DNA of 40,086 nucleotides, taken from positions 1 to 40,086 of the forward strand of contig JAFTQT010000052.1 in assembly GCA_017462615.1 (NCBI GenBank). Reading direction: 5' to 3'. Position numbers and translations under genes: made by a program. The notes beneath the pieces were generated by a model, which was not told where the DNA came from, searched no databases, and was given only the letters and a program-made list of their open reading frames with translations. This DNA is from Clostridia bacterium. Lineage in GTDB: Bacteria > Bacillota > Clostridia > Oscillospirales > CAG-272. Within the stretch, counting starts at the first letter, position 1, and every line of letters starts with the position of its first letter. Positions 4,969 through 37,622 of this stretch are shown piece by piece.

Positions 4969-7758
4969 ATGGCAAAAGATTACAGTGCATCTCTAAACCT
5001 GCCCAGCACCTCCTTCGCGATGCGTGCGGAGCTGCCCAAGCGCGAGCCTCAGATGCTTGACTATTGGCAGGGAATGAAGCTTTATGACCGTATGCAGGAG
5101 CACAGAGCCGGCAAGCCCACCTTTGTGCTGCACGACGGCCCTCCCTTCTCCAATGGCAATATCCATATGGGGACGGCTCTCAATAAGATTCTCAAGGATT
5201 TTATCAATAAGTCCAAGACCATGATGGGATACGCCGTGCCCTATATTCCCGGCTGGGATAACCATGGTATGCCCATTGAGAACGCCATAATCAAGAAGAA
5301 TAAGATCAACCGCAAGAAAATGTCCGTGACGGAATTCCGCTCCGCCTGCCACAAGTTTGCGCAGGATTTTGTGGATATTCAGATGGGCCAGTTCAAGCGC
5401 TTGGGTGTCACCGCAGACTGGGAGCACCCCTACCTTACCATGTCTCCCTCCTACGAGGCAAGAGAGGTACGCGTATTTGGCGAAATGTACCGCAAGGGAT
5501 ATATCTACAAGGGCCTGAAGCCGGTTTACTGGTGCCCCAAGGACGAAACGGCTTTGGCCGAGGCGGAGATCGAGTACCGCACCGATACTTGCACCTCCAT
5601 CTTTGTGAAGTTTAAGCTGAAGGACGACAAGGGCAAGTTGCCCCGCAGCTGTGATCTTTCCCGCACCTACGTCATCATCTGGACCACCACCACCTGGACG
5701 CTGCCTGGCAACCTTGCCATCGCGCTCAATCCTATAGAAAAGTACGTGGTCGTCAAGGCCGGGGAGGAATTCTATATCGTTGCCAAGGAGCTGCTGGAGA
5801 AGACCATGCAGGCCGGCGGCGTGGAGCAGTACAAGGTGGTTGCTACCATGGCGGGCAAGGAATTTGAGTATATGACCGCACAGCATCCCTTCCTTGACCG
5901 GGACTCTCTGCTGGTGAATGCAGACTACGTCACCATGGATAGCGGTACTGGTTGCGTGCACACCGCTCCCGGCTTTGGCGCGGATGACTACCAGACCTGC
6001 CGCCGCTACAATATGGATATTATCGTGCCCGTGGATGACCGCGGCTACCAGACTGCAGACGCGGGCAAATACGCAGGAATGTTCTATGCTGAGTCCGGTG
6101 ATGCCATTCTTGCCGACATGAAGGAGTCCGGCGCTCTGTTCGCCTCCTCTGTCATGGAGCATGAGTATCCCCACTGCGACCGCTGCAAGAACCCCATTAT
6201 CTTCCGCGCCACCCCGCAGTGGTTCTGCTCGGTAGATGCCTTCAAGGAGGAGGCTGCCGCTGCCTGTGATAAGGTAGAATGGCTGCCCGAGTGGGGCGGA
6301 GAGCGCATCAAGTCCATGGTGCGTGATCGTGCCGACTGGTGCATTTCCCGTCAGCGCCATTGGGGTCTGCCGATTCCTGTGTTCTACTGCGAGGACTGCG
6401 ACAAGCCTGTTTGTACCCAGGAGACCATTGAGGCCGTTGCCACGCTCTTTGGTGAGAAGGGCTCCAACACCTGGTTTGATATGGAGGCCGCAGACATTCT
6501 GCCTGCAGACTTTGCCTGCCCCCACTGCCAGGGCAAGCGCTTCACCAAGGAGACCAATACCCTTGATTGATGGTTTGACTCCGGCTCCAGCCATTTCAAC
6601 GTGCTGGATGGCGAGGGCGGTCGCCACTTCCCCGCAGACGTGTATCTGGAGGGTGCCGACCAGTATCGCGGTTGGTTCCAGTCCTCCCTGCTCACCGCTG
6701 TGGGCGCCAAGGGAGAGGGCGCGCCCTATAAGACCGTGCTGACTCACGGTTGGGTAGTAGACGGCGAGGGTAAGGCTATGCACAAGTCTCTCGGCAACTC
6801 CATCGCGCCCGAGGAAATGATCGTGAAATACGGTGCGGATCTGGTGCGTCTGTGGGTCGCCTCCAGCGACTACCACGTGGACGTGCGCGTGTCCGACCCC
6901 ATTTTCAAGCAGCTGTCCGACGCTTACCGTAAGATCCGTAACACCGCCCGCTTCCTGCTTGCAGACCTGTATGATTTCGATCCCGACAAGGATGCGTTGC
7001 CTATGGAGGAACTCTACGAGATCGATCAGTGGATCGTGGCCGGCATGAATGAGCTGGTGGTGAATGCCCGTGACGCCTACAACCGTTACGAGTTCCATAC
7101 CATTTACCACGATGTGAACAATTTCTGCACCACCGAGCTTTCCAAGCTCTATATCGATATCACCAAGGATCGTGTGTACGCCGAGGGTGCTGATTCTCAC
7201 GCCCGCCGCTCCGCGCAAACGGCCATGTATTATATCATCAGTAGTCTGACGCGCTTGATCGCGCCTCTGCTTTCCTTTACGGCAGAGGAGATCTGGCAGG
7301 CCATGCCTCACCGCGAGAGCGACGTGGCCGAGAGCGTATTCCTCAATGATATGCCCGACTATGACGAGGCTCTGACCTTCCCTCGCATCGTTTCTCGCTG
7401 GAATGAGCTCTTTGCGCTGCGCGAGGACGTGATGAAGGCCCTGGAGCTGGCCCGCGCCGAAAAGCGCATTGGCAAATCCTTGGATGCCAAGGTAACGGTC
7501 TATGCGCCCGACGACAAGACCTATGCTCTGCTGGATACCTTCCGTGAGGAGCTGCCCACCGTCTTTATCGTTTCCGGTGTGGAGCTGCAGAAGGGTATTC
7601 CCGCTGAGGTGACCCTTGCCGAGGGTGCCACCATTGGTGTAGTGGTCAGCGCCGCCGATGGCGAAAAGTGCGACCGCTGCTGGAATTACACCACCACCCC
7701 CTTCCACGACGAGGACGGGTGCCTGTGCCCCCGCTGCCGCGCCGTGCTGGGTAAATAA
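4969..7758 (+). CDS. ileS: isoleucyl-tRNA synthetase, interrupted by in-frame UGA
   Basis: This class Ia synthetase charges tRNA-Ile in the cytoplasm. The open frame is continuous for 930 codons except for one TGA at 6568-6570 (codon 534). Before it lie the HIGH-box equivalent GNIHMGTALNK (HMGT, 66-69), the editing domain and the SRQRHWGLPIP block. After it come WFDSGSSHFN, the KMSKS equivalent AMHKS (603-607), the anticodon-binding domain and a C-terminal zinc site (C901, C904, C920, C923; C918 nearby). The TGA falls between TLD and WFDSG, a spot usually filled by one variable residue such as Val. No frameshift is needed, and conservation resumes at once on both sides. Neighbouring genes end with TGA, so UGA is a normal stop here. 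Possible explanations are a sequencing error, a recent nonsense mutation, or readthrough. ATG 4969 has an AGGAG site. I see no T-box leader in the 48-base upstream gap. Confidence 0.9.
6568..6570 (+). other. in-frame UGA codon inside ileS
   Basis: The codon order is ACC CTT GAT TGA TGG TTT GAC, giving TLD-stop-WFDSG. Codon phase is the same before and after. The nearest downstream in-frame start-like codon (GTG 6601) has no Shine-Dalgarno sequence and would begin in the middle of the catalytic domain, so a separately translated second half is unlikely to be functional on its own. Confidence 0.95.
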
Positions 7759-28158: not shown

Positions 28159-29226
28159 TTATTGAGCCTTCTTAACAAGACCCTTTTCGAGCAGAGCCTC
28201 ATCGGACTCGTACTCACATACGTACTTCTCGGCGGTGAACTTGGGATCGGGTACCAGCTGATTCTTGGAGGCCAGCAGAGCGATCAGCTCCAGACCCCAC
28301 TTTACGCTACGCTTGGAGGTCAGGCGCAGGCAGCAGGGCACGGTGTCGTATTTCTTGGAGGAGCCGACGTCGGTTACGTTGTACTTGGAGGCCTCCAGCT
28401 CGTTGGGATCGAGGGCAAGCAGCAGGCACAGGGTCTTGCCGCGTACGGCGAACTTGGCCAGCTGATCGCGGCCACTCTTGAAGGACTCGTAGCCCCAGCT
28501 GGTGCGTGCGGCAACCTTCTTGTAGGAAAGCAGGGCGTTCTTCAGCTCCTCATAGCGCTCCTGTACCTCAACGGGGGCCTGGATCATACGAGCGGTAAAG
28601 GATCTCTTGTACTCGGAATAGGAACCGCTGGTGGCACCATCCTCGCCGTCTGCTTCGGCAGCGGGCTCCTCGGCAACGGGCTCGGCGGGAGCTTCAGCGA
28701 CAGGCTCCTCGGCAACGGGCTCGGCGGGGGCTTCAACGACAGGCTCCTCGGCAACAGGCTCGGCGGGAGCTTCAGCGACAGGCTCCTCGGCAACAGGCTC
28801 GGCGGGAGCTTCAGCGACAGGCTCCTCGGCAACGGGCTCGGCGGGAGCTTCAGCGACAGGCTCCTCGGCAACGGGCTCAGCGGGAGTCTCAGCAACGGGC
28901 TCCTCGGCAACGGGCTCGGCAGCAGCCTTCTCAGCGGCAGCCTTCTCAGCGGCAGCCTTCTCTGCAGCGGCCTTTTCAGCAGCAGCAGCCTCTACGGCAG
29001 CAACGCGGGCAGCACGAGCCTCGGCAGCAGCCTTCTGGGCGTCGGTCAAGGGCGCCTCGGGCTTTTTGCTGGGCGCGGGAGCAGCCTTACCAACCTTCTT
29101 TTTGGCGCTGGCATGCTTGGCGATGAGGGCGATGATCACTACGGCCAGCACGGCGGCTACAGCAACCAACGCGATGGATTTGGTCTGATCCAGACCAAAC
29201 AGCGAGAATGCAAGAATGTTTTTCAT
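28159..29226 (-). CDS. membrane-anchored repeat-rich protein, unknown
   Basis: This 355-residue protein has an N-terminal membrane helix (about 18-37), a basic stretch (AKKKVGKAA), an Ala-rich coiled region with EKAAA repeats (84-103), about seven 13-residue units EPVAEEPVAEAPA (104-192) and a folded C-terminal domain (about 205-345). That domain contains YKRSFTARMIQAPVEVQERY, WGYESF and VRGKTLCLLLALDPNE. I have the impression of having seen this C-terminal domain in other Clostridia, but cannot name it. The Pro/Glu repeats likely act as a spacer that holds the domain away from the membrane. GAGGAAGAG precedes the start. It is cotranscribed with the beta-helix-like gene 22 bases upstream. Confidence 0.7.
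   Translation of the reverse strand: MKNILAFSLFGLDQTKSIALVAVAAVLAVVIIALIAKHASAKKKVGKAAPAPSKKPEAPLTDAQKAAAEARAARVAAVEAAAAEKAAAEKAAAEKAAAEKAAAEPVAEEPVAETPAEPVAEEPVAEAPAEPVAEEPVAEAPAEPVAEEPVAEAPAEPVAEEPVVEAPAEPVAEEPVAEAPAEPVAEEPAAEADGEDGATSGSYSEYKRSFTARMIQAPVEVQERYEELKNALLSYKKVAARTSWGYESFKSGRDQLAKFAVRGKTLCLLLALDPNELEASKYNVTDVGSSKKYDTVPCCLRLTSKRSVKWGLELIALLASKNQLVPDPKFTAEKYVCEYESDEALLEKGLVKKAQ
28651..28917. repeat. 39-bp coding minisatellite (EPVAEEPVAEAPA)n
   Basis: Six to seven tandem 39-base units encode 13-residue repeats with only one or two substitutions (a Thr for Ala in the first, a Val for Ala in the fifth). The high DNA-level identity suggests recent expansion and potential length variation. 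Confidence 0.9.
28918..28977. repeat. 15-bp repeats encoding EKAAA
   Basis: Four consecutive 15-base units encode AEKAA, directly before the 13-residue repeats in the same gene. A likely helical linker. Confidence 0.8.
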
Positions 29227-31589: not shown

Positions 31590-32063
31590 TTAGGGCTTTG
31601 TGAGGCCGTGCATAAAGCCGGCGCTGTCGGCCGAGGAAATGTCACCGCCAATGACCCTGCCGCGAAACACCAAAAGGTTGGCAAGCACGGTTCCCTCGTA
31701 CCCTTCGTAATTTTGCACCCGATAGGTGTAGCGCTCTACCGTGCGGCCGCCGTAATCCGATAGATTCAGCCCCTCCCTTCGCTGCAGCTCGTTATAGGCC
31801 GCAAAAACCTTGTCGAATTCCCGAGGAATGGTGACGGTGGTGCTCTCCAGGGGCATTGTCTCTACCTGCCACCCAAGCTGGGCAAGGAGCGCCACTCTGT
31901 CCTCGTTACTGCGAATGCCTTCAAAATTCACGCCTTCATCCGCCGCGGCCGCTGTCGGCTGCAGCTCCGGCACAAAGGCGATCAACGTGATCAGTGCCGC
32001 CAGCGCCACACATAAGACGGCAATAAAGCGTACCGTTCCCGCCCGCATAGAATAAATGAACAT
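31590..32063 (-). CDS. DUF4830 domain protein, membrane-anchored
   Basis: This 157-residue protein has a signal-anchor helix (about 12-28, VRFIAVLCVALAALITLIAFV), then a DUF4830-like domain: NEDRVALLAQLGWQVE, TVTIPREFDKVFAAYNELQ, and RYTYRVQNY...VLANLLVFRGRVIGGDI. The family is of unknown function and is exported or membrane-bound in Clostridia. I chose ATG 32063 because AGGAGG lies just upstream; an ATG at 32168 would add 35 unlikely residues. Divergent from the cysteine-rich lipoprotein gene. Confidence 0.75.
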   Translation of the reverse strand: MFIYSMRAGTVRFIAVLCVALAALITLIAFVPELQPTAAAADEGVNFEGIRSNEDRVALLAQLGWQVETMPLESTTVTIPREFDKVFAAYNELQRREGLNLSDYGGRTVERYTYRVQNYEGYEGTVLANLLVFRGRVIGGDISSADSAGFMHGLTKP

Positions 32064-32220
32064 AACAAACCTCCTTTGGTGGTTTCCCATACCAATATAC
32101 GCAGGGGCGGTGAGGATTATGACAGAGAAGGCAAGCGCGTTGGCGCGGATCCTCGCGCGGACGGTCACACTTCAGCGAAATATTTACATGTTACGTAGAT
32201 GAAGAAAACACGCAAAAGCG

Positions 32221-32249
32221 TTGACAAGGAGGGCGGGAAGTGCTAAACT
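32221..32249 (+). promoter_or_regulatory. promoter of cysteine-rich lipoprotein gene
   Basis: Perfect TTGACA (32221-32226), a 17-base spacer and TAAACT (32244-32249), about 50 bases before ATG 32301. The -10 is imperfect. Another TTGACA at 32278-32283 has no matching -10. Confidence 0.55.
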
Positions 32250-32300
32250 AATGGTATCAGAATCAAGGCTTCATTCCTTGACAAGTGAGAGAGGGCGCAT

Positions 32301-35300
32301 ATGACGACAAAGATTTGCAGATTATTAGAGCTGCTGCTGGTGCTGCTGTTGGCGGTGACGGTGTGCCTGGTCACCGTTTCCTGTGATACCACACCGCAGG
32401 TCCCCGGAGAGGATCCCGGAATGGAGAATCCCGGCGAGCCCGGCGGCAACGAGCCCGGCGGCAACGAGCCCGGCGGCAATGAGCCCGGCGGCAACGAGCC
32501 CGAGGGCGGCGGTAATCAAGGCGGCAACGTGATCATTGGCCCTGGTGGTGTCGAAGGGATCCCCTCCATTCCCGGAGGCGGCAGCCAGGAGGAGCCTAAG
32601 CCGGATACGCATCGGCACGTTTTCGTAGTGAAGAAGGACGTACCCGCTACCTGCCTTGTGAACGGATGGCTTCTTGAAGCGTGCGACTGCGGTGAAGAGC
32701 TTCGGACGGAGCGCCAGGCCACGGGTCACGCATATCAAAACGGTATCTGCGGTGTGTGCGGATGGAGAGATGAGTCGCTGCATCTGCATGGTCAGGATGT
32801 GGTGGAGGAGCAGCCCGCTACCTGCGTGCAGGATGGCTGGCGCTTGGTGCGGTGCGGTGAGTGCGGCTTTGAGGAGCGGATCCCGCTGTTTTCGCCGGGC
32901 CATTCCTATAACAGCACGGGAAGCTGCACCGTGTGTGGATATGCCAAGGTGCATCAGTGCCATTGGGCCGAGGTCTCGCGTCGGGAGTCCTGCGCGGAAA
33001 GCGGAACCCGTCAACTGCGCTGCTATGGCTGCGGCCTTGAAAAAACAGAGATGATCCCGCCCACGGGCAAGCACGATCAATCCTACGACAGCGTGGGTGT
33101 CTGCGGCCTTTGCGGTACGCGCAACAATGCCGTTTGCACGGTTTGCAGCTGGGTGCTTTCCGATCTGGAGACGCTGCCCGGTTGCGTCACCAAGGGCAGG
33201 GCCGTCTACACCTGCGCCGGCTGCCATCGTACCTGTCGTATTCCTGTGCCTGCGCTTGGTCACAGCTACGCGGGCGGCACCTGTACGCAATGCGGCGCTA
33301 CGGAAGCGCACGATTGCCAAAATCATCTCAGTCAGCTGTACCGAAAGAACAGCTGCGCGGATAGGGTGATTGTGCTTTCGGAATGCACCGTTTGCGGCAA
33401 GATCCTTGCGGAGGAGCGGCCACCCACAGGGCACGCCATCACCCCCAACTGTGAATGCTTTATTTGTGGCATGGAGCTGCACGCCTATACCGTGCTTTCA
33501 GAAGAGAGCGCCGGCTGCGTTGAGGTTGGTGTCAAGCGCCTGCAATGTGACATTTGCGGCCATATCAAGGAGCAGATCGTGGCTCCGCAGGAGCACGACA
33601 TAGGCGAGGACGGCCGCTGTCTGAACTGCGATTTTGTGCGTGTCGGCACGCACGACTGCGATTTTTATCTGGCCCATGCAACCGCGGAGAATTGTGACGC
33701 CTTCGGTTGGCAGATCTGGGTCTGCCGCATTTGTGAGGGCGTGAAATGGGAGCAGCCCCTTCCCACGCCTCACCACTACAAGCTGGTGCAGGAAATTGTG
33801 AGCACAAAGGGCTACGTGGTGCGCGAGGAGTGCTGTGTGGATTGTGACGCGCTGAGCGTCACCTATGGTGATTCCCTGTCTCACGCCCACGTCTCTGTGA
33901 CCGTTTCCGATGTGTTGGGCGGCGCAAAACGGTTGGTTTGTCTTTGGTGCGGAGCGGAGCTGGAGGCGCCGGATACGACCGATCACGAGCATTCCTACCG
34001 CACCTCGCGTGTGGAGCCCGAATGTGAGGCACCAGGCACCTTGACGACCTATTGCGTTATCTGCGGTTACGCTGTTACCGAGTCCATTCCGGCTCCCGGT
34101 CATCAGCAGATCACCGTTCCGCGCAAGGATGCCACCTGTGAGGAAAACGGCCACGAGGCCTATATCGCTTGCGCGACCTGCGGCGAGGCTCTGGAGGAGG
34201 TCGTGATCATCTTTGGCAGACATCTCTACGAAAATGAGGTTTGCATCCGCTGTGGCGCGGAGGAACCCAGCGACCACACCCACGAATACGAAGAATACTG
34301 GAAAATGGATGCCACGTGTACAAAGCCCGGCACGCTGACGGAGCGGTGCGTGCATTGCTGGAAGCAGCGCCAGAGCGTGCTGCCCGCCACCGGGCATAGC
34401 TATGAAAAGGGTGTTTGCACCGCTTGTGGCGCGGTGGACGAGACCACCCACGTTCACGAATACGAGGAGATAGGGTACAGTATCCTTCCCACTTGTGAAA
34501 GGCCCGGCGAAATGCTGGAGCAATGCGTGCTTTGCGGCGCGGAGCGCTTTGTTCCCGTGCCCGCTCTCGGGCACGATTATGACGAGCGTGATGTCTGCAA
34601 GCATTGCGGCGCAGTGAACGAGAAGCACGAGCACATGTGGGTGACCCTCAGCGAGATACCCGCCTCCTGCGAAAAGAGCGGCAAGATCAGGGAAGGCTGC
34701 GTGCAATGCGGAGCTGAGCGCGAGGAGCTTTTGCCCGCCCTTGGTCATCATTATTTGGATGGGATCTGCGGCAATTGCGGTGACGTCCGGCAGCATCGCT
34801 GCTTGTGGATAGAAATATCCAGAACCGAGGCCTGCACCGGACAGGGCACGCGTACCCTTTGCTGCTATGGCTGCGGCGAGGAGGTCATCGAGCCTCTTGC
34901 GCCCCTTTCCCACGACGATAATTACTTTTTCTACGGCACCTGTGGTCGCTGCTCGGCAACAAACGACGCCTTCTGCCAGCATCATTTGCCGGTATTTTCC
35001 GAAGTCATACGGGAGGCCACCTGCACGGAGCGCGGCGTTTCCGCTTACAGCTGTATGAATTGCCTCCAGATCGTTCAGCTGCCCACGCCTGCCCTTGGCC
35101 ACGATTTTGCGGGCGCAAACTGTTCCCGCTGTGGCGTTGCCCTTGAGCACGATTGCAGGGAGCACCTACGGGAGCTGCCCTACTACCATAGCTGCACGGA
35201 GGAATATACGCAGATCTGGGAATGCATGCTGTGCGGCATGATCGATCAACGGATTTGCTCGCCCGGGCACGTAATGAATCTGTGTAAGTGTGAATATTGC

Positions 35301-36026
35301 GATTACGAGAACCACGGATGGCTGGAGAGGCTTCCTCAGGATCTGACCACAGGCTGTACCGATGCTGTTGTTACAAAGTGGGAGTGCCACGAATGTGGGA
35401 AGATCGTCGATGAGGTGCGGCAGCCGGTGGGGCATAGCTACGCAAGCGGCGCGTGTACCGCCTGCGGTATGGCGCAGCCTGGCGCGCATGAATGCGACTA
35501 CGTACTGCTATACCACACGGAGGCAAGCTGCACCGAGTACGGTACACAGCTTTGGAGCTGCGCGATCTGCGCTGGATCCGTATGGGCGGACATCGAGCCG
35601 CAGGGGCATACCTTTGAGGAAATGCATCGGGAGTTCACCCAGCAGGGTCTTGTTTTGATCGTATCCCGCTGTGAAAAATGCTCCCTTTGGAGATCCGAGG
35701 TGGGCGAAAATGCCCACGTGACCGTTACCGTGGCAGACGCGAGCTACGGCTGCACGGATGAGCGGGCTTTGCGGGATATTTGCGCCATTTGCGGTACGGA
35801 GCTGAGAGCTTATTCCTCCTTGGCACCGGGTCATACCGTGGAGATCGATCACGCGGATGCTACCTGCTATACCGAAGGCTATCATCGCGAGCTGTGCGTG
35901 GCTTGCGGCGAGGTGCTGTCAGAGGAGATCTATCCCACCGTAGAGCATCAGTATGAAAACGGCAATTGCTGGATGTGCGGTGCTGCCGAGAAGCCCGACA
36001 TCGAGCTGCCGAAGGCAAAATTTTAG
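32301..36026 (+). CDS. 1241-residue cysteine-rich repeat lipoprotein, unknown
   Basis: The N-terminus is a signal peptide with a probable lipobox (VTVSC, C28; the -3 Thr is atypical), then a Pro/Gly linker with four GGNEP repeats (48-67). From residue 104 to the end the protein consists of about 20 units of 50-60 residues. Each has the plan: His near the start, a single Cys, C-x2-C, then P-x-x-GH-x-Y-x(2-3)-G-x-C-x2-CG. I count about 111 cysteines. The CxxCG pairs look like zinc knuckles or disulfide-capped loops. Only one CxxCH (305-309) is present, so it is not a multihaem cytochrome. Units 104-600 and 718-1229 match each other in order, showing a large internal duplication. No enzyme motif is seen. 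GAGAGAGG precedes ATG 32301. Probably extracellular and membrane-tethered. Confidence 0.8.
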   Translation: MTTKICRLLELLLVLLLAVTVCLVTVSCDTTPQVPGEDPGMENPGEPGGNEPGGNEPGGNEPGGNEPEGGGNQGGNVIIGPGGVEGIPSIPGGGSQEEPKPDTHRHVFVVKKDVPATCLVNGWLLEACDCGEELRTERQATGHAYQNGICGVCGWRDESLHLHGQDVVEEQPATCVQDGWRLVRCGECGFEERIPLFSPGHSYNSTGSCTVCGYAKVHQCHWAEVSRRESCAESGTRQLRCYGCGLEKTEMIPPTGKHDQSYDSVGVCGLCGTRNNAVCTVCSWVLSDLETLPGCVTKGRAVYTCAGCHRTCRIPVPALGHSYAGGTCTQCGATEAHDCQNHLSQLYRKNSCADRVIVLSECTVCGKILAEERPPTGHAITPNCECFICGMELHAYTVLSEESAGCVEVGVKRLQCDICGHIKEQIVAPQEHDIGEDGRCLNCDFVRVGTHDCDFYLAHATAENCDAFGWQIWVCRICEGVKWEQPLPTPHHYKLVQEIVSTKGYVVREECCVDCDALSVTYGDSLSHAHVSVTVSDVLGGAKRLVCLWCGAELEAPDTTDHEHSYRTSRVEPECEAPGTLTTYCVICGYAVTESIPAPGHQQITVPRKDATCEENGHEAYIACATCGEALEEVVIIFGRHLYENEVCIRCGAEEPSDHTHEYEEYWKMDATCTKPGTLTERCVHCWKQRQSVLPATGHSYEKGVCTACGAVDETTHVHEYEEIGYSILPTCERPGEMLEQCVLCGAERFVPVPALGHDYDERDVCKHCGAVNEKHEHMWVTLSEIPASCEKSGKIREGCVQCGAEREELLPALGHHYLDGICGNCGDVRQHRCLWIEISRTEACTGQGTRTLCCYGCGEEVIEPLAPLSHDDNYFFYGTCGRCSATNDAFCQHHLPVFSEVIREATCTERGVSAYSCMNCLQIVQLPTPALGHDFAGANCSRCGVALEHDCREHLRELPYYHSCTEEYTQIWECMLCGMIDQRICSPGHVMNLCKCEYCDYENHGWLERLPQDLTTGCTDAVVTKWECHECGKIVDEVRQPVGHSYASGACTACGMAQPGAHECDYVLLYHTEASCTEYGTQLWSCAICAGSVWADIEPQGHTFEEMHREFTQQGLVLIVSRCEKCSLWRSEVGENAHVTVTVADASYGCTDERALRDICAICGTELRAYSSLAPGHTVEIDHADATCYTEGYHRELCVACGEVLSEEIYPTVEHQYENGNCWMCGAAEKPDIELPKAKF
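32442..32501. repeat. four 15-bp GGNEP repeats
   Basis: Four consecutive near-identical 15-base units encode GGNEP in the linker after the lipobox of the cysteine-rich protein. Only one synonymous change is seen (AAC to AAT). Confidence 0.9.
32610..34100 (+). repeat. super-repeat block A of cysteine-rich protein
   Basis: Residues 104-600. Unit by unit, it aligns with block B at a constant offset of about 609-615 residues: HQCHWAEVSRRESC with HRCLWIEISRTEAC, EAHDCQNHL with LEHDCREHL, and AHVSVTVSD with AHVTVTVAD. Confidence 0.8.
34452..35987 (+). repeat. super-repeat block B of cysteine-rich protein
   Basis: Residues 718-1229, the partner of block A. Irregular units are copied too, for example the short HxxCKC/NCEC unit (384-389 and 995-1000) and the long insertion ending in AHVTVTV. 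This argues for duplication of an already diversified array, not independent expansion. Confidence 0.8.
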
Positions 36027-36033
36027 ATAAACC

Positions 36034-36073
36034 AAAAAGAGAACGAAGCGACTTGCCGCTTCGTTCTCTTTTT
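36034..36073 (+). terminator. terminator of cysteine-rich protein gene
   Basis: AAAAAGAGAACGAAGCG (36034-36050) pairs perfectly with CGCTTCGTTCTCTTTTT (36057-36073), followed by a further T. Confidence 0.9.
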
Positions 36074-36097
36074 TAGCGGAGAGGCTTACAGGCTCTC

Positions 36098-36129
36098 AAT
36101 AAATAAAGAGGGAGCCCTCGGGCTCCCTC
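36098..36129 (-). terminator. terminator of proS
   Basis: GAGGGAGCCC (36108-36117) pairs with GGGCTCCCTC (36120-36129). On the minus strand it is followed by TTTATTTATT. Confidence 0.75.
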
Positions 36130-36139
36130 CGTTTGTGAA

Positions 36140-37579
36140 TCAATACTGTCTGCCCCAGACCACCATATGCTTGGCGGGCTTGCCGCAGCAAACGCAGGTG
36201 TCGGAGAGCTTTTCCTCGGTGAAGGGGATGCAGCGGGACTTGACGCCGCCGGTCTTATCCTTCAGCGCGTCCTCACACGCCACGTCGCCGCACCACATGG
36301 CCTTGATATAGCCGGGCTTGTTCTCGGCAATCTCCAGGAACTCCTCCAGATTCTTTGCAACGTGGGTCTTCTCCGCAAGATTCTTGCGGGCGCGCTCCAC
36401 CAGCTCGTCGTGTACCTGCCGGAGCATAGCGGCCACCTCGGCCTCTACGTTATCAAGGGAGACGAACTTCTTCTCGCGGGTCACGCGGCTGACCAGCACG
36501 CAGGAATTGTTTTCGATATCCTTGGGGCCGATCTCCAGACGAACCGGAACGCCCTTCATCTCGTATTGGCTGAACTTCCAGCCGGTGGACTGATCGCTGT
36601 CGTCCAGCTTGACGCGCAGGGTCTCGGCAAGGCGGGCCTTCAGCTCGTTTGCCTTTTCGAGAACGCCCTCCTTGTGCTGGGCAACGGGAATGATAACCAC
36701 CTGAATGGGTGCTACGGCAGGGGGCAGGATCAGGCCGTTGTCGTCGCCGTGGGTCATAATGATGGCACCGATGGAGCGCGTAGAAACGCCCCAGGAGGTC
36801 TGGAAGGGATACTTGACGGTATTATCTCTTGCGGTGAAGGTGATGTCAAAGGCCTTGGCGAAGCCGTCACCGAAGAAGTGAGAGGTGCCGCCCTGCAGGG
36901 CAACGCCGTTGTGCATCATGGGTTCGATGGTGTAGGTTGCCTCAGCACCGGCAAACTTTTCCTTGTCGGTCTTGCGGCCGGTGATGGCGGGAATGGCCAG
37001 CGCCTCCAGGTAGAAGTCCTCGTAGACCTTCAGCATCTGCTGGGTCTCGGCCTCGGCCTCCTCGCGGGTTTCGTGCATGGTATGTCCCTCCTGCCACAGG
37101 AACTCGGACGTGCGCAGGAACGGACGGGTGGTCTTTTCCCAGCGAACCACGGAGCACCACTGGTTATAGAGCTTGGGCAGGTCGCGGTAGGACTGGATCA
37201 CATTCTTGAAATGCTCGCAGAAAAGCGTTTCCGAGGTGGGGCGGACGGCCAGACGCTCGGTGAGCTTGTTCTCGCCGCCGAAGGTGACCCAGGCGCACTC
37301 GGGAGCAAAACCCTCCACGTGATCCTTCTCCTTGGTCAGCAGGCTTTCGGGGATGAACATGGGCATATATACGTTTTCGTGTCCGGTCTTCTTAAAGCGG
37401 GCGTCCAGATCCTTCTGGATGTTTTCCCAAATGGCGTAGCCGTAAGGACGGAAGATCATACAGCCCTTGACGCTGGAGTAATCCATCAGCTCTGCCTTTT
37501 TTACGACGTCGGTATACCACTGGGCAAAATCAACCTCCATCGAGGTGATCTGCTCCACCAATTTCTTTTCTTTTGCCAT
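36140..37579 (-). CDS. proS: prolyl-tRNA synthetase, archaeal/eukaryotic type
   Basis: This class II synthetase charges tRNA-Pro. At 479 residues it lacks the inserted editing domain of the classical bacterial form. Signs include [21 protein letters not shown], the motif 2 region [29 protein letters not shown] (motif 3) and a C-terminal extension with CxxC pairs (TCVCCGKPA) ending in Tyr, typical of the Thermus/archaeal group. AAAGGAA precedes ATG 37579. This form occurs in many Clostridia and likely reflects old transfer. Confidence 0.94.
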
Positions 37580-37622
37580 TGTCGGTTCCTTTCTCTTGAA
37601 ACGGATAGATAGATACCATTCT

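Follow-up and report, generated by a model that had tools for sequence, protein, structure and literature searches.

A giant cysteine-rich repeat protein of a CAG-272 Clostridia bacterium, with units related to predicted zinc-binding domains of an IgA protease

A lipoprotein-like repeat protein of 1241 amino acids with 111 Cys (hereafter the giant) is encoded at positions 32301-36026 of the forward strand of contig JAFTQT010000052.1, from the Clostridia bacterium assembly GCA_017462615.1 (Oscillospirales, family CAG-272). The window that was analyzed, 40,086 nt, is the entire contig, and the assembly (2.13 Mb in 172 contigs) is 78% complete. The giant consists almost wholly of about 20 Cys/His units, which by profile comparison are homologous to zinc-binding domains (ZBDs) 1 and 2 of the Thomasclavelia ramosa IgA protease. 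These units probably hold zinc-type sites, the metal being presumed from the kind of ligands. We put slightly better than even chances on a secreted, lipid-anchored surface protein in which the units form one long zinc-stapled beta rod, and even chances on a structural role as a stalk or coat. Lipidation, the placement of sites between units, and the rod shape are features that we infer.

The frame is intact from its ATG start and contains 61 His and 37 overlapping CxxC motifs. Cys makes up 8.94% of the giant versus 1.67% (147/8796 residues) over the 24 other open reading frames (ORFs) of the window that were tallied, and the 37 CxxC motifs counted in residues 101-1241 compare with a mean of 10.1 and a maximum of 21 in 2000 composition shuffles. 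Residues 8-27 have a mean Kyte-Doolittle value of 2.69, and Cys28 ends a match to a lipobox pattern that we take to be PS00013-like, the Thr at position -3 being less usual. In its size, Cys content, signal peptide, likely lipid anchor, and number of units, the protein is as described in the original prediction, which was made from the DNA letters alone. The prediction also gave no catalytic motif, and agreed in this with the searches: nothing scored above cut-off in Pfam or NCBIfam, and these libraries gave neither a catalytic domain nor a peptidase match, including the M64 catalytic domain with its zinc-binding HExxHxxxGxxD, for what is probably an extracellular protein. A single-sequence search of the PDB at E 1 returned no match. 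The GRP match in Pfam (17.7 bits for a cut-off of 30) was rejected as a Gly-rich artefact.

The repeat array and its putative metal sites

The array was cut into 19 segments, which gives about 20 units if a degenerate unit inside segment 7 is counted. About 20 units of the pattern GHxYxxGxCxxCG had been predicted; the number holds for a wider definition (Cys, CxxC, His, and mostly a second CxxC), whereas the strict pattern GHxYxxGxCxxC occurs just five times. Long units run from an [HC]x[HC] start through a unit Cys in an "ATCxxxG"-like turn, a CxxC knuckle, and the histidine of a GH pair to the second CxxC. Among units 1-6, exceptions are the CxC of unit 1, the CxxC start of unit 4, and the single-His start of unit 6. 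Alignment of 14 long units left six invariant columns, of which five are Cys and one is His, and identity to the first unit is 19-42%. The array also contains an internal duplication (Table 1). Between its two copies, Cys is retained at 42 of 45 aligned positions and His at 17 of 23, with 69 identities among the 339 residues that are not Cys, His, or Gly. This pattern, in which Cys and His are kept and other residues mostly changed, is read as selection on ligand-type residues. Slippage of DNA tandem repeats was rejected as the origin of the array because Tandem Repeats Finder gave only the 15-nt linker repeat within the gene; a further repeat search listed short, diverged repeats, the longest being 74 nt at 70%.

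The units are confidently predicted to fold. AlphaFold2 was confident both on a two-unit fragment of the giant (Table 1) and on a three-unit relative, with three strands per unit in each (a strand count only), and the original prediction withstood this folding test.

Unit features were counted using regular expressions on the giant and on the frames of 68 relatives chosen as good matches, where neither relatives nor repeats are independent. Short units have three Cys and one His: of 238 short gaps, none contains a second knuckle, 233 are free of Cys, and exactly one His is present in 183. A second knuckle tends to accompany the [HC]x[HC] start, both at 82 array starts (27/37 versus 18/45) and in isolated single units (24/26 versus 7/25). 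Of the 27 arrays with both features, 16 have Cys and 11 have His as the first residue of the start, an exchange that is usual for metal ligands and impossible for a disulfide. A knuckle follows 322/325 units with the unit Cys versus 6/27 without it (303/325 versus 6/27 for strict CxxC); with the related loci L175-L186 omitted, the strict coupling is 179/195 versus 5/16 (p 5e-8). The unit Cys is also associated with the unit His. Its coupling to the knuckle that follows suggests that four-ligand Cys/His sites join neighbouring units. In the giant, 37 four-ligand sets, mostly Cys3His or Cys2His2, were assigned by hand; 34 are complete, and 102 of the 108 mature Cys are used.

At the array ends of L175-L186, units without the unit Cys often have a His three residues before the knuckle. 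Over all loci this His is present in 9/25 units without the unit Cys versus 7/329, and eight of the nine come from L175-L186; such ends are possibly a capping variant, represented by few independent cases.

Relatives of the unit and their partner domains

Profile A2 found the T. ramosa IgA protease in the PDB (9qa6), with three stretches and E 3.3e-10, followed by zinc fingers and rubredoxins from E 9.3e-7 onward. Profile A4, built without any row from the giant, matched 9qa6 at E 4.7e-7 over 118 of 119 positions and had no other match at 0.01. The link from the giant to 9qa6 goes via profiles, A2 being the parent of the relatives-only profile that matches the giant. This relatives-only profile recovered the giant at E 1e-65, with the best of 500 shuffled copies at E 0.043 and the reversed copy not listed.

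As given in PMC12237041, ZBD1 and ZBD2 are zinc-binding spacers by a 2025 prediction in which the sites are called putative, the chain resolved by cryo-electron microscopy covers S32-N876 and stops short of the ZBDs, no disulfides were seen although there are 24 Cys, and the ZBD model also puts metal sites between subdomains. The module is therefore in print as a prediction. Of the clear match to a characterised family of known function that would have refuted the original prediction, the homology is there and the function is not, as the ZBDs are themselves predicted. No description of a protein made of such units was found in the literature searched; the array-only, long-unit form is new, and the module predicted in one enzyme is what was already known.

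The giant and this igalysin (M64), as described in PMC12237041, share a homologous unit, a three-stranded subdomain, and Cys/His four-ligand sites (predicted there, bookkept here), and the protease is likewise a surface-anchored protein with a proposed spacer. It has two to three subdomains per ZBD behind a protease, whereas the giant has its many units, mostly of the long type with second knuckle and [HC]x[HC] start, and no enzymatic part that was found. The protease is sortase-anchored and the giant a predicted lipoprotein; sites 4-6 of the protease have two His and two Cys, whereas the sets of the giant mostly have three Cys and one His.

The tallies by profile take in the window's own genome, and certain genomes appear in more than one sample. 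Profile A1, built from the giant, matched 125/146 family genomes in 64/71 genera, and profile A2 matched 94/291 genomes of the class and 14/299 genomes of a phylum sample, eight of them outside the class. The per-genome count, also proposed originally, gave 65 unit matches in 17 open frames of the own genome, including the giant (three frames through one weak match each). Among those of these frames that were checked for the lipobox pattern, L150 and L151 match, as does L152 by eye. Coverage by the unit profile is 88% in the giant, the first of 70 frames scanned, with A1 being derived from it; second, at 84%, is L184 (315-2744), a frame of 810 aa whose genome is more distant.

Single units had been described as C-terminal modules, which proved too narrow: units of relatives are also found close to N-termini, in the middle of proteins, and in long arrays. 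Partner domains include LRR_5, SLH, Amidase_3, subtilase, PA14/GLEYA, DUF6273, a prepilin motif, and a dockerin. In unit-bearing relatives, Pfam also gave a few matches below cut-off to zinc-finger models of eukaryotes. BspA-type LRR_5, SLH, and amidase proteins of the same bacterial family resemble the giant in having one or several such units, but there the unit is accessory to a recognisable domain, whereas the giant is nearly all unit. Compared with classical zinc ribbons (NrdR, the RNA polymerase I zinc subunit), the sites of the giant are exported, tandem, and His-containing, and similarity is too weak for membership to be called. G5-E modules, as in the staphylococcal stalks SasG and Aap, are not known to be Cys-rich. 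No sequence homology to these stalks was shown, and the units of the giant are diverged and not near-identical; the long near-identical DNA repeats of a SasG-like periscope protein were not found in the gene by Tandem Repeats Finder.

The Pfam and NCBIfam scans recognised the unit in one relative only, and barely. This is L118 (2950-10884), with 2645 aa, 150 Cys, a lipoprotein-like N-terminus, and units alternating with another short module. As a whole protein, it scores 28.2 bits with DUF7836 (PF25206; cut-off 26.7), and the best stretch (1485-1520) is inside a unit, but no single stretch is significant, and the giant and the other scanned unit-bearing frames are unmatched. In L120 (1552-5397), a protein that also has DUF6273, the stretch of long units from the GH histidine to the second knuckle contains DxDxxG-type loops, which look like calcium loops. 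DUF6273 is named at the N-terminus of the IgA protease in PMC12402451. The own genome also encodes a unit-bearing frame of 1471 aa (L188, 819-5231) with a weak cohesin match below cut-off, the end of which may be read as dockerin-like.

Proposed role and its alternatives

In the explanation proposed, each unit would be a small three-stranded sheet. The unit Cys and GH histidine of a unit would combine with the next CxxC knuckle into one four-ligand site, and the [HC]x[HC] start of a unit with its own knuckle into another. Up to 37 such sites might stitch neighbouring segments without disulfides, which would suit an anaerobe from which the known disulfide-forming enzymes are absent, and the rod, rising from the membrane and crossing the wall, would act as a stalk, coat, or spacer. 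If the published length of 110 Å for 129 residues is scaled up, residues 104-1226 would extend over roughly 95 nm. A broader reading, for which we see somewhat less than an even chance, is that Clostridia lacking disulfide machinery build long surface proteins with metal stitches in place of disulfides, using an extracellular module that is very widespread but has hardly been named and whose zinc ions each link a pair of neighbouring units; the giant would then be a near-pure fibre of about 37 zinc stitches.

Several observations weigh against this explanation. Three of the 37 sets are short of a ligand, and 67/352 own knuckles have neither an upstream unit nor a start motif detected. A narrow start, H.[HC], is not associated with the end knuckle in 136 arrays (22/41 versus 48/95, p 0.85); the start-knuckle association arose once Cys was allowed in first place, many starts being CxH, and this choice was post hoc. 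Decay at array ends could mimic part of the coupling between the unit Cys and the knuckle. No head domain was found for the giant, and with no ortholog found either, a spacer without anything to present looks odd. The own genome also has a lipoprotein-like frame (L005, 1486-3168) that contains a CDPC motif and an AhpC-TSA/thioredoxin domain; no other candidate for extracellular thiol-redox activity was seen there, and this frame makes some extracellular thiol chemistry possible.

This candidate and the abundance of Cys in an exported protein are what a disulfide ladder, with paired Cys building a rigid oxidised stalk, would have in its favour. The ladder was offered as an alternative in the original prediction, together with a check for disulfide-forming enzymes. 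That check found DsbA, VKOR, and DsbB each in 0/146 family genomes with positive controls, the own genome being 78% complete and SdbA-like AhpC/TSA proteins not searched for. The CxxC knuckle spacing also speaks against a ladder, as do the tendency of obligate anaerobes to keep Cys out of exported proteins, stated in PMC12453122, and the lack of disulfides in the related IgA protease, stated in PMC12237041. Together, short units with an odd number of Cys and a conserved His, the His/Cys exchange at the start, the mostly complete four-ligand sets, and the missing enzymes favour zinc-type sites over disulfides, and a ladder is very unlikely.

The same metal sites could be selected for capacity (about 37 ions per chain) and not for stiffness, as a cell-surface reservoir or buffer for zinc or another soft metal; metal storage and metal sensing were also offered in the original prediction, and neither gained clear support. 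Such a use would agree with so many sets on one probably lipid-anchored chain and with the lack of an effector domain in Pfam and NCBIfam searches, but Cys3His and Cys2His2 structural sites usually bind too tightly to exchange, no metal transporter was found among 30 neighbour ORFs scanned with Pfam, and elsewhere units accompany amidase, subtilase, LRR, and SLH domains, indicating structure rather than storage; we consider a reservoir unlikely. It is also improbable that the giant is an adhesin or receptor, with units that themselves recognise host, microbial, or plant-fibre ligands and metal sites that serve folding only. Probable surface display, a variable accessory locus, and the LRR_5, PA14/GLEYA, and dockerin partners that the unit often has would fit an adhesin; however, a ligand-binding motif was not identified in the giant, and between its internal copies hardly anything except the metal-type ligands is retained, which is not what a conserved binding face would show. 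A decaying or non-functional expansion, that is, an accessory gene grown through duplication with no selected role, would explain why the giant is missing from related genomes and loci (see below), but the frame of 1241 codons is intact and the Cys are kept between the internal copies far beyond the other residues, and we regard decay as most improbable.

Should the units carry zinc on the outside of the cell, gut Clostridia would have a redox-independent substitute for disulfides in exported proteins, in 125 of the 146 family genomes sampled. This would bear on the stabilisation of surface proteins in anaerobes, on the zinc demand of the gut, and on the annotation of many surface proteins. 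The array logic, in which the unit Cys and His pair with the next knuckle, can be tested directly on small fragments, and the interest lies in this testable logic between units, the wide and barely annotated spread, and the missing disulfide enzymes.

Genomic setting

The giant is located between proS and a DUF4830 gene (Table 1). The stretch from 31590 to 36140 is a small variable locus, the cargo of which differs among relatives. It was compared in 80 of 593 ProS relatives, the nearest of which is SIG683 (98%); by these relatives, the source organism probably belongs to Oscillospirales-type Clostridia. Most of the closest named records are metagenome assemblies, several of them from the gut of deer, sheep, and horse, and the source organism is probably a gut bacterium of a herbivore. 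The DUF4830 gene is downstream of proS in 21/80 loci, the remaining loci ending or diverging earlier. None of the 80 has a relative of the giant at E 1e-8, and in one a different frame with units lies close to proS. The slot of SIG683 is occupied by a gene that matches GNAT weakly, below cut-off, and elsewhere there is an FtsW/RodA gene (L044 and L047) or an oxidoreductase (L041). At E 1e-20, the giant had no match in the 145 other genomes of the family, three of them of the genus (at most four candidates scored per genome), and the first contig scan of genomes with the giant as query gave no relative. With differing slot contents and the giant found in none of the other genomes and loci searched, the giant is lineage-specific accessory cargo in a variable slot beside proS.

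Table 1. Features of the giant gene and of the slot that contains it
Feature	Positions (residues)	Strand	Remark
DUF4830 gene	31590..32168	-	edge of slot, outside the system; Pfam and loci comparison
Shine-Dalgarno-like GAGAGAGGG	32287..32295	+	5 nt upstream of the ATG of the giant; read from the sequence
Giant Cys-rich lipoprotein-like gene	32301..36026	+	1241 aa, 111 Cys
Signal peptide and lipobox-like VTVSC	32301..32384	+	putative lipidated Cys28; pattern match
Gly/Pro/Glu-rich linker with EPGGN pentads	32385..32609	+	15-nt DNA repeats at 32435-32502
Internal duplication, first copy	32607..33968 (103-556)	+	34% identity to second copy, E 2e-86
Units 1-6, long type	32610..33650 (104-450)	+	[HC]x[HC] start, Cys, CxxC, His, second CxxC
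Unit 7 and degenerate unit 7b	33651..33980 (451-560)	+	7b with HAH and CxxC, without unit Cys
Unit 8 (short type, without second CxxC) and unit 9	33981..34271	+	segment cut
Units 10-16, long type	34272..35486 (658-1062)	+	segment cut
Internal duplication, second copy	34446..35810 (716-1170)	+	pairs with first copy
Two-unit fragment, AlphaFold2	34446..34826 (716-842)	+	mean pLDDT (predicted local distance difference test) 92.0, pTM (predicted template modelling score) 0.50, six strands
Units 17-19 and C-terminal tail	35487..36023 (1063-1241)	+	segment cut
proS	36140..37582	-	opposite edge of slot, convergent; Pfam and loci comparison

Neighbours with Pfam matches are chromosomal genes, for instance miaA, tsaD, rex, hprK, proS, and pgm. 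A mobile element was rejected, as the window contains no tRNA and no Rfam match and the Pfam-matched neighbours are mostly housekeeping genes. IleS lies in two frames of the forward strand, 4969-6570 and 6601-7758 (positions 1-300 and 325-414 of Pfam tRNA-synt_1), which points to a stop or frameshift near 6570-6600, from either an assembly error or a broken gene. On the reverse strand, 28159-29226 encodes a protein of 355 aa with 39-nt tandem repeats that encode stretches of the AEPVAEEPVAE type.

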